Below are positions 1,884 to 5,346 of a stretch of DNA of 19,358 nucleotides, piece after piece. Made by a program: the position numbers and the translations under genes. Positions within the stretch are counted from its first letter, which is position 1. Each line of letters begins with the position of its first letter. Source of the stretch: an uncultured Clostridia bacterium (GTDB taxonomy: Bacteria > Bacillota > Clostridia > Oscillospirales > Acutalibacteraceae); the NCBI GenBank assembly GCA_945875045.1, contig CAMCIX010000001.1, forward strand, positions 1 through 19,358. The letters run 5' to 3'. Below the pieces are notes generated by a model. The model saw only the letters and a program-made list of their open reading frames with translations. It made no database searches and was not told the DNA's origin.

Positions 1884-3080
1884 TCATTCCTTTGCTTTAT
1901 TAAAGATATTGCTGATAACATCAGCGCTTTCCTGTTTTTTGGACTTATCAAGGTGGGCATAGATATTTGCCGTTGTTGAGAGGTCGGAGTGACCGAGGAA
2001 GGTCGATACATTCAGCAGAGGCACATCCCGATTGATAAGGATACTTGCGAAGGTGTGTCGTAGGTCGTGGAAGCGAATCTTTCGCAGGCCGTAGCGCTCG
2101 ATAAGGTCAGCAAATCGCCCCGTAACTCTGTTCGGTCTTAGCAGTTCGCCGAGCTGATCGACGCAGATATAATCATCGAATTTGCGATTATAACTGCCTT
2201 TAAACATTCGGCGGTTTAGGTCTTGCTTTTCCCGTTCCTCGCAGAGCATTTCGTAGACGGGGTCCGGCAGAGGAAGGGTTCGGCGGCTTGATTTATTTTT
2301 CATTTCCTCTACAGGCTCTACGATAACCTTGCCGTTTTCCTTGTACTCGATAACCTTGGTGTCGAGCAGGATGGTGCGTTTTTCCCAATCAACCCTTGAC
2401 CATCTTGCACCCAAGGCTTCGCTTCGGCGTAGCCCCAAGCCACCCGCTAACATTACCGCAGGGTAGATAACATCCCCGCGCAGGAGTCCGAGCATTGTTA
2501 TCAGCTCGTCCTCGGAATAATTTTCACCGGTGAACTTGTTTTTCTTCGGGCGGTCGATTCGGTCGAAGGGGTTGGCATCTATCAGCTCGTCCTTGAGCGC
2601 TCTTTTGAAGGCGCTGTGCAGGACGGTATGATAGTGAATGACGGTGTTGGCAACGACACCCGACTCGAACATCCAATCATAAAAATTCTCAATGTCCTTT
2701 GACGTTATATTGCCGACCGTCAGATCACTGTGGGCAGTAAAATACCGCCGAATTCTACCGTAGATCATTCCATGGTAGCTTTCGGCGGTACTCTTTTGGA
2801 TATTCTTTTCGATCTTTTTATAGTGGGCGCACATATAATCGAAGATTGGAATATCCGAGGCAGGCTTGGCATTTCGGGCAATCTGCTCGGCGTAATCATT
2901 TTCAAAGGCTTTGACTACCTCTCGGTAGGCTTTGTTCACCTTTGATTTATTTGAGCCTTCGGGAAGACCGAGAGCTCGCCACACGGGTTTTGTCTTACCG
3001 TTTTCCTTTACTTGTATCACGGCATAGAGGCGACCCTTTTTAGCCTGTACGCTGGCGGCAAGTGTGGTTTTGGCATCCAT
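1884..3080 (-). CDS. int: Tyrosine recombinase / integrase of the mobile element
   Basis: This 398-residue phage/Tn916-type integrase excises and inserts the element by site-specific recombination. An N-terminal arm-binding region covers about 1-70. A SAM-like core-binding domain covers about 75-175 (FDYMCAHYKKI ... TVIHYHTVLHSAFKRAL). The catalytic domain runs from about 185. The active-site set is complete: Arg218 (GLGLRRSEALGARW), Lys263 in the beta-hairpin (KNKSSRRTLPLP), His338 and Arg341 (RFHDLRHT), His364 (FLGHSDLSTT) and the nucleophile Tyr374 (ANIYAH). The start has an excellent RBS (AAAAAAGGAG). The first 41 bases overlap the excisionase gene, the usual xis-int arrangement. With no missing residues it should be active. 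I could not identify attachment sites. Confidence 0.96.
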   Translation of the reverse strand: MDAKTTLAASVQAKKGRLYAVIQVKENGKTKPVWRALGLPEGSNKSKVNKAYREVVKAFENDYAEQIARNAKPASDIPIFDYMCAHYKKIEKNIQKSTAESYHGMIYGRIRRYFTAHSDLTVGNITSKDIENFYDWMFESGVVANTVIHYHTVLHSAFKRALKDELIDANPFDRIDRPKKNKFTGENYSEDELITMLGLLRGDVIYPAVMLAGGLGLRRSEALGARWSRVDWEKRTILLDTKVIEYKENGKVIVEPVEEMKNKSSRRTLPLPDPVYEMLCEEREKQDLNRRMFKGSYNRKFDDYICVDQLGELLRPNRVTGRFADLIERYGLRKIRFHDLRHTFASILINRDVPLLNVSTFLGHSDLSTTANIYAHLDKSKKQESADVISNIFNKAKE

Positions 3081-3396
3081 TTTTTATCACTCCTTTTTTG
3101 TTTTTGCCAACACGAACAATATCACAAGTTGGTTTGCAAGTCCAGACATTATCGAAAGTTTTCTCAAGATAATAGACCTTAGGGTTCGAACTTGTTCCGT
3201 CCTTTTGCTGTAAATAATCGATCAGCTGCGATTTGGCAATGCGATTTTCTCTGCCGACCTTAACCGCCGGCAGAGTTTTTTCTTTGATAAGCTTGTAGAC
3301 GGTTTTTATACTAACTCTCAGTATCTCCGCAGCTTCAGCGGCAGTCAGTGCCGCCGGATAACAGCGCAATTCTTTTTCGCGCTCTTTTTTAGTCAT
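3040..3396 (-). CDS. xis: Excisionase-like helix-turn-helix protein
   Basis: The 118-residue protein carries a MerR/Xis-type HTH_17 domain at about residues 17-62: LTAAEAAEILRVSIKTVYKL, then the wing LPAVKVGRENRIAKSQLIDYL. Proteins of this type bend DNA at attachment sites and steer the integrase toward excision. Its start follows the relaxase stop by 17 bases, and its RBS (GAAAGGAG) sits directly after that stop. Its 3' end overlaps integrase by 41 bases. The tail beyond residue 70 is longer than in the minimal Xis proteins, basic and Cys-containing (ICxxH-like residues CQNHTC), and may be extra DNA-contacting sequence. Function follows from fold and position. Confidence 0.88.
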   Translation of the reverse strand: MTKKEREKELRCYPAALTAAEAAEILRVSIKTVYKLIKEKTLPAVKVGRENRIAKSQLIDYLQQKDGTSSNPKVYYLEKTFDNVWTCKPTCDIVRVGKNKKGVIKNGCQNHTCRQRTG

Positions 3397-3413: not shown

Positions 3414-4871
3414 CTACATCTTCATCGTAGGTGTTTCGGTTTCTTCTGTAGTTGTGTCCTCGGTGTTATCGGCATCGCTCATGGCGGCAATGGCACCGAC
3501 GGCGAGACCGATCATCGCACCGAGGTTTGAAGCATTTTCCTGTGCTTCGATTCGTTTTCGACGTTCCTCCGGATCTTCGGATGTGCTGTCGATTATGCTA
3601 CCAGCTTCCAGAATACCACGCAGACCAACACCGACAGTGCTACCGCCGACACCGCTGTGGCAATCATTATTTTCATAATCTTCTGCTGCAGTTTCTCGAT
3701 CGTACTGTCCAGAGCCTTGGTACTCCCCGAAATGGTTTCGGAGCAGTTCGAAATAAATTGCTCTTGATTCTTCCCAGCCTGTTCTACGATCGTCTGCATC
3801 TGAGCCACTGTATCCGCGTTGGCATTCACCACCTCCTGAACCGTTCTCTCCATATACTCCGCCTCGATATTCTGTATCTCTGTGCAGTGGTCGGTCAGCT
3901 CTTCCCGTGTCGCCAGCCCCTCTATCAGCTGATACAGCTTCGGCTGAAACTCCACCGCGTCCTCCAGCAGTTGGCTCTCCCGCTTGCGCTGTTCTATCGG
4001 AATCGCATACACCTGCGGCTGATACGGAATCTGTGCCAGTTCGGATACCGTCCGTGTGTTTTTCTGCTTCAGCATATCCACCGCCGTGTTCTGCTGTGAG
4101 CCGTTTCCTGATTGTGAACTCATACTCTAATACTCCTTTCAAATATTTGTCATCGTGCAGTCGTATGTCCCTGCACTTCATTCCGTTTGGGCAAGTGAAA
4201 GTGATATATTTTCTTTCATCTGTCCACGTAACTTGATAGCCGAGCCGATTCATTTCTCTTATAAAATCCGCTCGGCTACCGCTTCGGTTCATAACAAAGT
4301 CAATGTCGGCAATCAATTTAAATTTCCAACTCTCGCCTTTGGAGGCGGCGCGGTACTCTCGGCTTGAAATATTTGCACCATCTTTTCTATACGGTTTTAA
4401 AACACTAAGCCCGTGTTCGTTACAGATGCTGTCGCTGAGTGTTCGTAACCGATTCAGCGTTCCGGGGTTCTGCCTAAGCTTATTGCCGTTTTCATAATGC
4501 ACAGAGTTTATAACAAAGTGATTATGAAGGTGCTCGGCATCGGTGTGGGTAGTCACTAAAACTTCATGTCCTGGCCACGCTTTTTCTGCGAACTCCAAAC
4601 CGATTTTGTGAACCTGCTCGGCAGAAACATTTTCCTTCGGTGAAAAGGATTGAACGTAATGATAAAAAGTAATACCGCCCTTCTTTTTATGCGCGTTCTT
4701 TGTCACCATAAATTCTGTGAAAGAATTCTCGCCGTTGCAATTTACGCCGCCCACAAGTCTGCGACCGCTGTCCTCGTCTGCAACCTTTTTCTGTTGCAAA
4801 CAATAATCTATCACCGCCTTCATTGCGCTGATACTTTGATTGGATTCGGGAATAAAATTTACGGTTGCCAT
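3414..4871 (-). CDS. Relaxase / mobilization nuclease (MOBP-like)
   Basis: The 485-residue protein has an N-terminal relaxase domain (about 1-250) that would nick oriT and pilot single-stranded DNA. Motif I is AMKAVIDYCLQQKK with candidate nucleophile Tyr23. Motif III is the metal-binding signature HTDAEHLHNHFVIN with His109, Asp111, His114, His116 and His118. Residues 136-165 (GTLNRLRTLSDSICNEHGLSVL) are typical of this family in Firmicutes. From about residue 250 the chain becomes Gly/Asp/Arg-rich and low in complexity. That stretch is exactly where another gene is encoded in a different frame. The last 60 residues regain order with a small Ala/Gly hydrophobic helix (GAMIGLAVGAIAA). The start overlaps the mobC stop as TAATG, so translation is probably coupled. 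Confidence 0.93.
   Translation of the reverse strand: MATVNFIPESNQSISAMKAVIDYCLQQKKVADEDSGRRLVGGVNCNGENSFTEFMVTKNAHKKKGGITFYHYVQSFSPKENVSAEQVHKIGLEFAEKAWPGHEVLVTTHTDAEHLHNHFVINSVHYENGNKLRQNPGTLNRLRTLSDSICNEHGLSVLKPYRKDGANISSREYRAASKGESWKFKLIADIDFVMNRSGSRADFIREMNRLGYQVTWTDERKYITFTCPNGMKCRDIRLHDDKYLKGVLEYEFTIRKRLTAEHGGGYAEAEKHTDGIRTGTDSVSAAGVCDSDRTAQAGEPTAGGRGGVSAEAVSADRGAGDTGRADRPLHRDTEYRGGVYGENGSGGGECQRGYSGSDADDRRTGWEESRAIYFELLRNHFGEYQGSGQYDRETAAEDYENNDCHSGVGGSTVGVGLRGILEAGSIIDSTSEDPEERRKRIEAQENASNLGAMIGLAVGAIAAMSDADNTEDTTTEETETPTMKM
3593..4123 (-). CDS. Nested MobB/MbeB-like coiled-coil membrane protein inside the relaxase gene
   Basis: This 176-residue frame lies wholly inside the relaxase gene, in a different frame on the same strand, covering relaxase codons of about 250-426. 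Three things argue that it is real: a strong RBS (GAAAGGAG, nine bases before ATG 4123); ordinary protein composition, unlike the low-complexity relaxase frame opposite; and a coherent layout. That layout is a polar N-terminus, a long heptad-like helical region at about 75-150 (EIQNIEAEYMERTVQEVV and so on) and one C-terminal membrane helix at about 151-173 ending FWKLVA. In ColE1-type plasmids mbeB and mbeD are likewise nested in the mbeA relaxase gene, and MbeB is a membrane-associated stabiliser of the relaxosome. A similar job is inferred here. Confidence 0.85.
   Translation of the reverse strand: MSSQSGNGSQQNTAVDMLKQKNTRTVSELAQIPYQPQVYAIPIEQRKRESQLLEDAVEFQPKLYQLIEGLATREELTDHCTEIQNIEAEYMERTVQEVVNANADTVAQMQTIVEQAGKNQEQFISNCSETISGSTKALDSTIEKLQQKIMKIMIATAVSAVALSVLVCVVFWKLVA
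4133..4139 (-). promoter_or_regulatory. Internal ribosome binding site for the nested gene
   Basis: On the minus strand AAAGGAG lies inside the relaxase coding sequence, nine bases upstream of ATG 4123. It matches the consensus used by the other genes of this operon and is the main evidence for independent initiation of the nested protein. Confidence 0.75.
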
Positions 4872-5188
4872 TATCCTTTCCTCGCAATCTCTAATAGTTG
4901 TTCGTAGATTTTCTTCTGTTCGTCTACCACATCCTGAAAATCATACGACACGAATACTCCCGAATTTATCTTCGTTGCAATCTGATTCAGGTTGTTGCCG
5001 ATGCGCTTGAGTTCGATCAGCAACGGTTTTACATCCTCTGCAACTTGGATGGGTATTTCGAGCGAAAGCGAAACAATATAGTCGGTAAGGCTTCGCTTGG
5101 CGCGTTTTGCATTTCGCTCGATGCGTTCCTTTTCGGCTTTGGTGAGCCGAATGGTCAGCGTGTTATCACGCCGTCTTTTTTCACTCAT
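4871..5188 (-). CDS. mobC: MobC-like relaxosome accessory protein (ribbon-helix-helix)
   Basis: The protein has 105 residues from ATG 5188; ATG 5197 would add three. I prefer 5188 because GGA lies nine bases upstream of it, while 5197 has no RBS at a proper distance. The N-terminus matches a ribbon-helix-helix DNA-binding domain: a basic lead (SEKRRRDN), a beta strand TLTIRLT, then helices KAEKERIERNAKRAK and SLTDYIVSLSLE. The second half has the MobC signature LIELKRIGNNLNQIATKIN and a long helix to the end. Such proteins bind oriT, open it and recruit the relaxase. The gene directly follows the structured interval proposed as oriT, and its stop overlaps the relaxase start by one base. Confidence 0.9.
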   Translation of the reverse strand: MSEKRRRDNTLTIRLTKAEKERIERNAKRAKRSLTDYIVSLSLEIPIQVAEDVKPLLIELKRIGNNLNQIATKINSGVFVSYDFQDVVDEQKKIYEQLLEIARKG

Positions 5189-5218
5189 TTTTATCATTCC
5201 ATTCGTAATAATAGTGGG

Positions 5219-5236: not shown

Positions 5237-5275
5237 ATTTCAGCGGTCAGGCGGACAGCCGGACGCTCTGCTTGC

Positions 5276-5293
5276 CCCAGACTAAAGTCTGGG
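5276..5293. repeat. Perfect 8-bp inverted repeat in the oriT candidate
   Basis: CCCAGACT (5276-5283), AA, AGTCTGGG (5286-5293). The two-base centre is too tight for a comfortable RNA hairpin, and no T-run follows. It therefore looks more like a protein-binding palindrome or relaxase recognition arm than a terminator. Confidence 0.65.
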
Positions 5294-5346
5294 AAATGAA
5301 AAACCGAAGTTCTCACAATCGCCCCAAATTTGCGTTTTAATCTTCA

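Follow-up and report, generated by a model that had tools for sequence, protein, structure and literature searches.

Overlap between a relaxase gene and an accessory mobilization gene is known from ColE1, RSF1010 and staphylococcal mob regions. In RSF1010, mobB lies within mobA/repB in another reading frame, and published accounts count MobB as one of the activities that mobilization requires (PMC2200642) and describe a C-terminal membrane domain, an N-terminal domain that contacts MobA and an overlap of mobB with mobA in another frame (PMC4655240). Some ColE1 plasmids are described, in an excerpt, as having mbeB and mbeD overlapped by mbeA (PMC6118388). Further excerpts report three partly overlapping genes, mobA, mobB and mobC, on S. 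aureus pKKS49, which are described as no more than distant relatives of the staphylococcal ones (PMC6157413), and a mobA stop that overlaps the mobB start in Lactococcus (PMC6098607). With respect to integrative mobilizable elements, the main text of one paper contained no words beginning with "overlap" or "MobB" (PMC5704250), and another used "overlap" once, concerning integration sites (PMC12904643). The clostridial family of nested genes analysed here had no description in the titles and abstracts that searches of the open-licence PMC literature listed.

The relaxase locus and its nested reading frame

The window, the whole stretch of 19,358 nucleotides that was analysed, contains a 485-codon relaxase ORF on the minus strand (3414..4871), which wholly encloses a minus-strand ORF of 176 codons (3593..4123; ATG at 4123, stop at 3593) at an offset of 748 nt, that is, in phase +1. 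The original prediction gave the coordinates, strand and length of this frame correctly, as well as its strong internal ribosome binding site, a Shine-Dalgarno sequence AAAGGAG (4133..4139, minus strand) placed 9 nt from the ATG and read as Lys-Gly in the relaxase frame. The predicted start and Shine-Dalgarno sequence sit directly behind the relaxase domain. The relaxase can be assigned to MOBP from its domains: its catalytic domain (residues 23-155; 4407..4805, minus strand) matched PF03432 well above the curated cut-off (E 3.3e-37, 128 bits; cut-off 24.6), and it is accompanied by a NikA/MobC-type relaxosome accessory protein of 108 aa (4871..5197, minus strand; PF21983, E 5.7e-19, 68.5 bits; PF05713, E 1.2e-9, 38.9 bits). 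The gene order continues from the NikA/MobC protein and the relaxase to an excisionase-like helix-turn-helix protein (3040..3396, minus strand; TIGR01764, E 6.3e-14) and then to the tyrosine recombinase, or integrase, of the element (1884..3080, minus strand; PF00589, E 2.9e-26); judged from these neighbours, the setting is an integrative mobilizable element. A candidate oriT core, non-coding and assigned to neither strand, was located at 5243..5297. It contains an inverted repeat (CCCAGACT/AGTCTGGG) at 5276-5293 and is conserved among relatives, with 91-95% identity across 51-55 nt in L007, L016, L017, L035, L036 and L040.

Comparison with ColE1 bore out the architectural likeness that had been claimed. 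As in the window, a MobC-type protein is encoded upstream of the ColE1 relaxase gene mbeA, mbeB (with mbeD) lies inside mbeA in phase +1 (offset 688), and mbeB has the Shine-Dalgarno sequence AAAGGAG read as Lys-Gly and an ATG inside a TAT-GAG pair; the ColE1 relaxase is typed as MOBP and that of the window is MOBP-type by domain. MbeB differs from the nested protein in carrying PF04837 and in the position of its hydrophobic segment, which by eye is mid-protein, and the mbeB start lies 16 alignment columns earlier than that of the window, partly because of a gap. RSF1010/R1162 mobB, likened here from partial published descriptions rather than from sequence, is similarly an accessory gene in another frame of mobA whose product has a C-terminal membrane domain, but the RSF1010 relaxase is MOBQ, unlike that of the window.

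Plasmids of Bacillota provided further parallels. The mobB frame of pC221 and the gene for the DUF334 protein of S. epidermidis p1 have the same phase, +1, and a possible start at the same relaxase-domain column, and the p1 product has a membrane segment, as does that of the window (the pC221 frame runs off the record); in contrast to the contained gene of the window, their relaxases are short (314-315 aa) and the p1 gene extends past the relaxase stop. The frames of pC221 and ColE1 that carry no annotation are called mobB and mobA here. A Waltera plasmid (LC817946) and pCD-METRO encode a related clostridial relaxase with a +1 frame, a hand-chosen start at the same column and a membrane segment, but there the relaxase stops within the second ORF, and the pCD-METRO product carries DUF6040. 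In all, +1 ORFs with a membrane segment just past the relaxase domain were found in S. epidermidis p1 (annotated as DUF334), Secundilactobacillus (annotated as MobB), E. faecium pJHP38_4, the Waltera plasmid and pCD-METRO, and the +1 frames of pC221 and M. lentus extend beyond the fetched records. In Fusobacterium pFN1 the gene whose product has a membrane segment is separate and lies downstream, and no +1 ORF of at least 70 codons was present in the Lactococcus relaxase. Since overlapping +1 frames occur on staphylococcal, lactobacillar, enterococcal and clostridial plasmids, and are also indicated by the excerpt on pKKS49 (PMC6157413), the arrangement is not new for Gram-positives, contrary to how it had been presented.

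Database entries for these plasmids were uneven. The Waltera plasmid and pCD-METRO (L075 and L079) have a MOB-suite type of non-mobilizable in PLSDB, yet each has, besides a MobC-like gene, a relaxase-like ORF that a second ORF overlaps. The PLSDB gene tables for ColE1, S. epidermidis p1 and Secundilactobacillus (L080, L072 and L076), which are incomplete by design, list the overlapping gene and not the relaxase.

Distribution of the nested gene and its start site

A protein database contained 143 homologues of the nested protein, all predicted proteins. Among the 120 listed, 63 were 176 aa long, none had a functional name, and 52 were encoded on contigs of fewer than 1500 bases, too short for a full relaxase gene with flanks. 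The relaxase had 3092 matches, distant families included, and the best 120 of these were all 482-485 aa and covered the full query. The expectation that automatic annotation would usually drop the nested gene goes further than these counts allow. Genome searches (198, 394 and 391 genomes, in overlapping samples) and one contig scan identified 31 distinct places, three of which (L011, L026 and L041) were left out because the relaxase ORF was absent beside the match. In 24 of the remaining 28 loci the nested frame was open, in phase +1 and inside the relaxase ORF, and in these 24 it lay between the relaxase domain and the tail; identity to the nested protein of the window was as low as 23% (L012, the lowest measured). 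Because L040 was interrupted by a contig end, 27 loci could be judged, and the relaxase frame was open over the overlap in 25 of them, being broken in L005 and L036. Both frames were broken in L005/L018, L036 appeared to be a decayed copy, and in L003 the relaxase frame shifts just past the nested gene. Stop codons common in the nested frame of relatives with an open relaxase frame had been named as the observation that would count against the gene; just one of the 27 loci, L035, showed such a stop.

Searches farther afield returned little. Three scans of viral contigs turned up no relatives, and a tblastn search of plasmids with the nested protein gave no match. A search of 398 genomes drawn across the phylum had its sole match in the window's own genome, so that the family has been seen only within the window's class. 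The best PF03432 matches of 291 genomes, comprising 30 loci, included two with a contained +1 ORF of more than 100 codons and a hydrophobic C-terminus (L048 and L055), both of which were already in the set. A relaxase of another branch (L067) contains a 202-codon +1 ORF from codon 95 that lacks a hydrophobic C-terminus. In addition, L016 and L017, from genomes of two families in the order, were 97.5% identical across 3.6 kb, which points to transfer between the two families.

The position of the start was shared widely. In a joint alignment a start codon occupied the window's column in seven Bacillota plasmids and in 19 of 22 intact loci (the window included, selected for both frames intact), with the starts in the eight outside plasmids being picked by us from candidates; those of ColE1 and Secundilactobacillus are the annotated ones, the annotated S. 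epidermidis start is two codons downstream of the one used, and for the remaining five the annotation offers no start that matches. The first ATG was off the shared column in L023, L038 and L039. A Shine-Dalgarno-like stretch preceded the nested ATG in 19 of the 22 intact loci.

Beyond the nested stop, the relaxase tail (3414..3592, minus strand) was conserved in the alignment, with the motif EDPEERRKRIEAQENASNLGAMIGLAVG in the window, and is wholly or mostly without this motif in L032, L033, L037, L038 and L039. In one locus, L069, a relaxase frame of 382 codons runs in one ORF from the domain through a shorter linker to a tail that can be recognised by eye; the nested gene is absent, although a Shine-Dalgarno-like motif remains. 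This loss, together with the tail variation among loci, suggests that the overlap stretch is a replaceable relaxase linker. A different, longer and repeat-like relaxase tail (Sel1-like by eye) follows the nested gene in L008 and L021.

An unrooted tree, from which ColE1 was left out because of its long branch in an earlier tree, grouped the nested loci and L069 at 96/94, with L069 placed within the nested clade, and the Bacilli overlap group at 100/100. On this tree, nesting requires two changes (one clade and the loss in L069), an overlap running past the relaxase also requires two, and all three labels together require four.

Constraint on the two overlapping frames

In a +1 overlap, position 3 of a relaxase codon is position 2 of a nested codon and relaxase position 1 is nested position 3, so that the frame under constraint can be read from the periodicity of substitutions. 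For the window, L003, L004 and L005, variable columns at relaxase positions 1/2/3 numbered 13/7/70 upstream, 37/23/14 in the overlap and 0/2/20 in the tail; the periodicity thus moves to the nested frame in the overlap (contingency p=5.8e-13) and returns in the relaxase tail (p=3.5e-9). In three further sets (the window/L004/L006/L015, L010/L012/L002 and L024/L025/L028/L022) position 1 was likewise the fastest within the overlap, and position 3 on either side of it. In the negative control, relaxases without a nested gene, position 3 was fastest in both halves in all four sets, and contingency tests (p 0.075, 0.019, 0.35 and 0.31) indicated at most changes of degree, not of order.

Substitution ratios in both frames, the check proposed in the original prediction, agreed with this pattern. 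Excluding ratios based on rare SS sites, nested dNN/dNS ranged from 0.09 to 0.66 over nine sets and was at most 0.42 in eight of them, the value of 0.66 coming from L007/L016, a pair so alike that the overlap holds 13 differences. Relaxase dNN/dSN in the overlap was 0.42-1.10 over the nine sets, and upstream relaxase dN/dS was 0.05-0.17. From these ratios and the inverted periodicity, the nested frame is the better guarded of the two, being under purifying selection and more constrained than the overlying relaxase frame, and the latter is here a loosely constrained linker, kept free of stops, to the conserved tail. The proposal that the nested gene shapes a Gly/Asp/Arg-rich relaxase frame was likewise sustained; G, D, R, E and S make up 54% of that frame above the nested gene vs 32% upstream. 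The sequence evidence therefore shows that a second, real gene is hidden within the relaxase gene of a gut-type bacterium's mobile element, a separate selected gene in another relaxase frame, of the kind found in ColE1, RSF1010 and pC221.

Divergence along the locus was mosaic in a comparison of the window with L003, in which variable columns numbered 5/725 before the overlap, 27/525 within it and 16/175 after it. L024/L025 showed a similar step. This mosaic divergence suggests recombination close to the junction of the relaxase domain and mobB.

Several simpler accounts of the second frame were weighed against these data. When the relaxase codons of the window were permuted among equal amino acids, the nested frame stayed open in 0.5% of 5000 shuffles, or in 2.2% with upstream codon usage, and under either scheme it was open in fewer than 5% of shuffles in 15 of the 22 intact loci. 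In the remaining seven, more than 5% of the synonymous shuffles preserved it, which would be compatible with a long second frame that is an artefact of relaxase codon usage, as would the stop in L035, and an open nested frame by itself is only moderate evidence on this result. The substitution pattern and the negative control are much stronger; the periodicity that inverts over the overlap, reverts after it and is absent in control relaxases, along with the fixed site of the start and its Shine-Dalgarno-like stretch in 19 of 22 loci and the hydrophobic C-terminus in 22 of 22, leave such an artefact a negligible probability. It is very unlikely that translation of the relaxase frame does not continue through the overlap, so that the protein would in effect be complete at the end of its domain and the frame beyond a relic. 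Near-neutral relaxase ratios in several sets (dNN/dSN about 1) and the broken frames of L005 and L036 would fit a relic, but permuting the nested codons left the relaxase frame open in fewer than 5% of shuffles in 21 of the 22 intact loci (the exception, L033, gave 9.6%), so that stops are predicted where 25 of the 27 judgeable loci have none. Moreover, the tail that follows the overlap is under selection in the relaxase frame, L069 has the domain and the tail in a single ORF, and the full-length coverage of the best 120 of the 3092 relaxase homologues also argues against a relic. Finally, the shared strand, the +1 phase and an overlap starting at the domain edge could accommodate a programmed frameshift that yields a relaxase-MobB fusion in place of two proteins. 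We regard this as highly improbable, since no shift is needed for expression where a Shine-Dalgarno sequence and an ATG occupy one fixed site.

The predicted product and its role

The product of the nested gene, a mobB-like protein of 176 aa, is predicted to be a rod of helices with a membrane helix at its end. It combines a flexible N-terminus, two short helices, a long helix and a C-terminal hydrophobic segment, and the AlphaFold model (mean pLDDT 81, pTM 0.36) places helices at residues 14-30, 43-68 and 73-175. The C-terminal membrane helix anticipated by the original prediction corresponds to a hydrophobic helix at residues 152-170 (KD 2.69). In all 22 intact loci a hydrophobic segment ends no more than 10 residues from the C-terminus, with a net positive stretch before it in 21, and the C-terminal helix rule holds for 89 of the 120 listed homologues (63/63 at 176 aa and 26/57 of other lengths).

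Comparisons with named families gave no link. The nested protein had no Pfam or NCBIfam match above the cut-off, the sub-threshold matches being coil-like, and no match to PF04837 (MbeB_N) or DUF334 (PF03904) at E up to 1; a single weak hit in PHROGs (E 0.0077) was to a family of unknown function. Two designed TPR proteins matched in the PDB were taken as helix noise. Comparisons by hhalign detected no profile similarity to MbeB (probability 0.3%) or to the DUF334 protein of S. epidermidis p1 (1.4%), and the probability was at most 2.6% against MbeB and the overlapping products of three other plasmids, all of these comparisons being of low power because each set one sequence against a shallow profile.

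We propose, with a probability of roughly 0.72, that the nested ORF is translated and serves the integrative mobilizable element as a MobB/MbeB-like accessory mobilization gene. Its product is best read as an unnamed MobB/MbeB-like relaxosome membrane anchor, a function suggested by context and layout; calling the ORF a complete mobilization gene was thus right as to the gene and too strong as to the role. A real gene with another role in the mobilization module, such as entry exclusion, regulation or manipulation of the helper system, is improbable but deserves consideration. No sequence link connects the nested protein to any protein of known function, L069 keeps its relaxase without the nested gene, which is therefore not always needed, and for exclusion there is a precedent in ColE1 MbeD, which is also encoded within mbeA and is annotated by NCBI as mobilization/exclusion. 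Arguing for the anchor instead, the nested gene follows the relaxase domain and precedes the tail in all 24 intact loci and adjoins MobC in the window, and a helical protein with a C-terminal anchor is the layout given for RSF1010 MobB in the partial descriptions cited above.

If the product is an anchor, a single operon mRNA would yield both it and the relaxase with its tail. The C-terminal helix would lie in the donor membrane, and the stalk and head would keep the complex of relaxase, MobC and oriT close to the coupling protein that a helper conjugation system supplies, which would increase transfer. The overlap may couple anchor production to relaxase production and thereby its dosage, and the relaxase tail could be a recruitment or regulatory segment. 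Of the two, mobB is probably the older gene, on which the relaxase linker was overprinted, rather than the other way round.

A broader and more tentative possibility is that the MOBP relaxase domain ends in a site of ancient dual use, at which the last motif (Lys-Gly/Glu ... Tyr/His-Glu) doubles as the Shine-Dalgarno sequence and start of an embedded membrane-anchor gene. Such a site might have been inherited from Pseudomonadota (ColE1) to Bacillota, with the anchor diverging until no likeness remained and each branch later overprinting its own relaxase C-termini on that gene; the shared start column makes convergence versus common descent of the mbeB/mobB overlaps testable.

If annotation retains one of two overlapping genes, either the relaxase or the anchor can vanish from catalogues of mobile elements. 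In sum, these results extend the mobilization machinery of such elements by a family of proteins that has no name and was seen here only in genomes of the window's class, and they invert the usual view of such overlaps, as it is the hidden frame that is conserved and the enzyme frame that yields.
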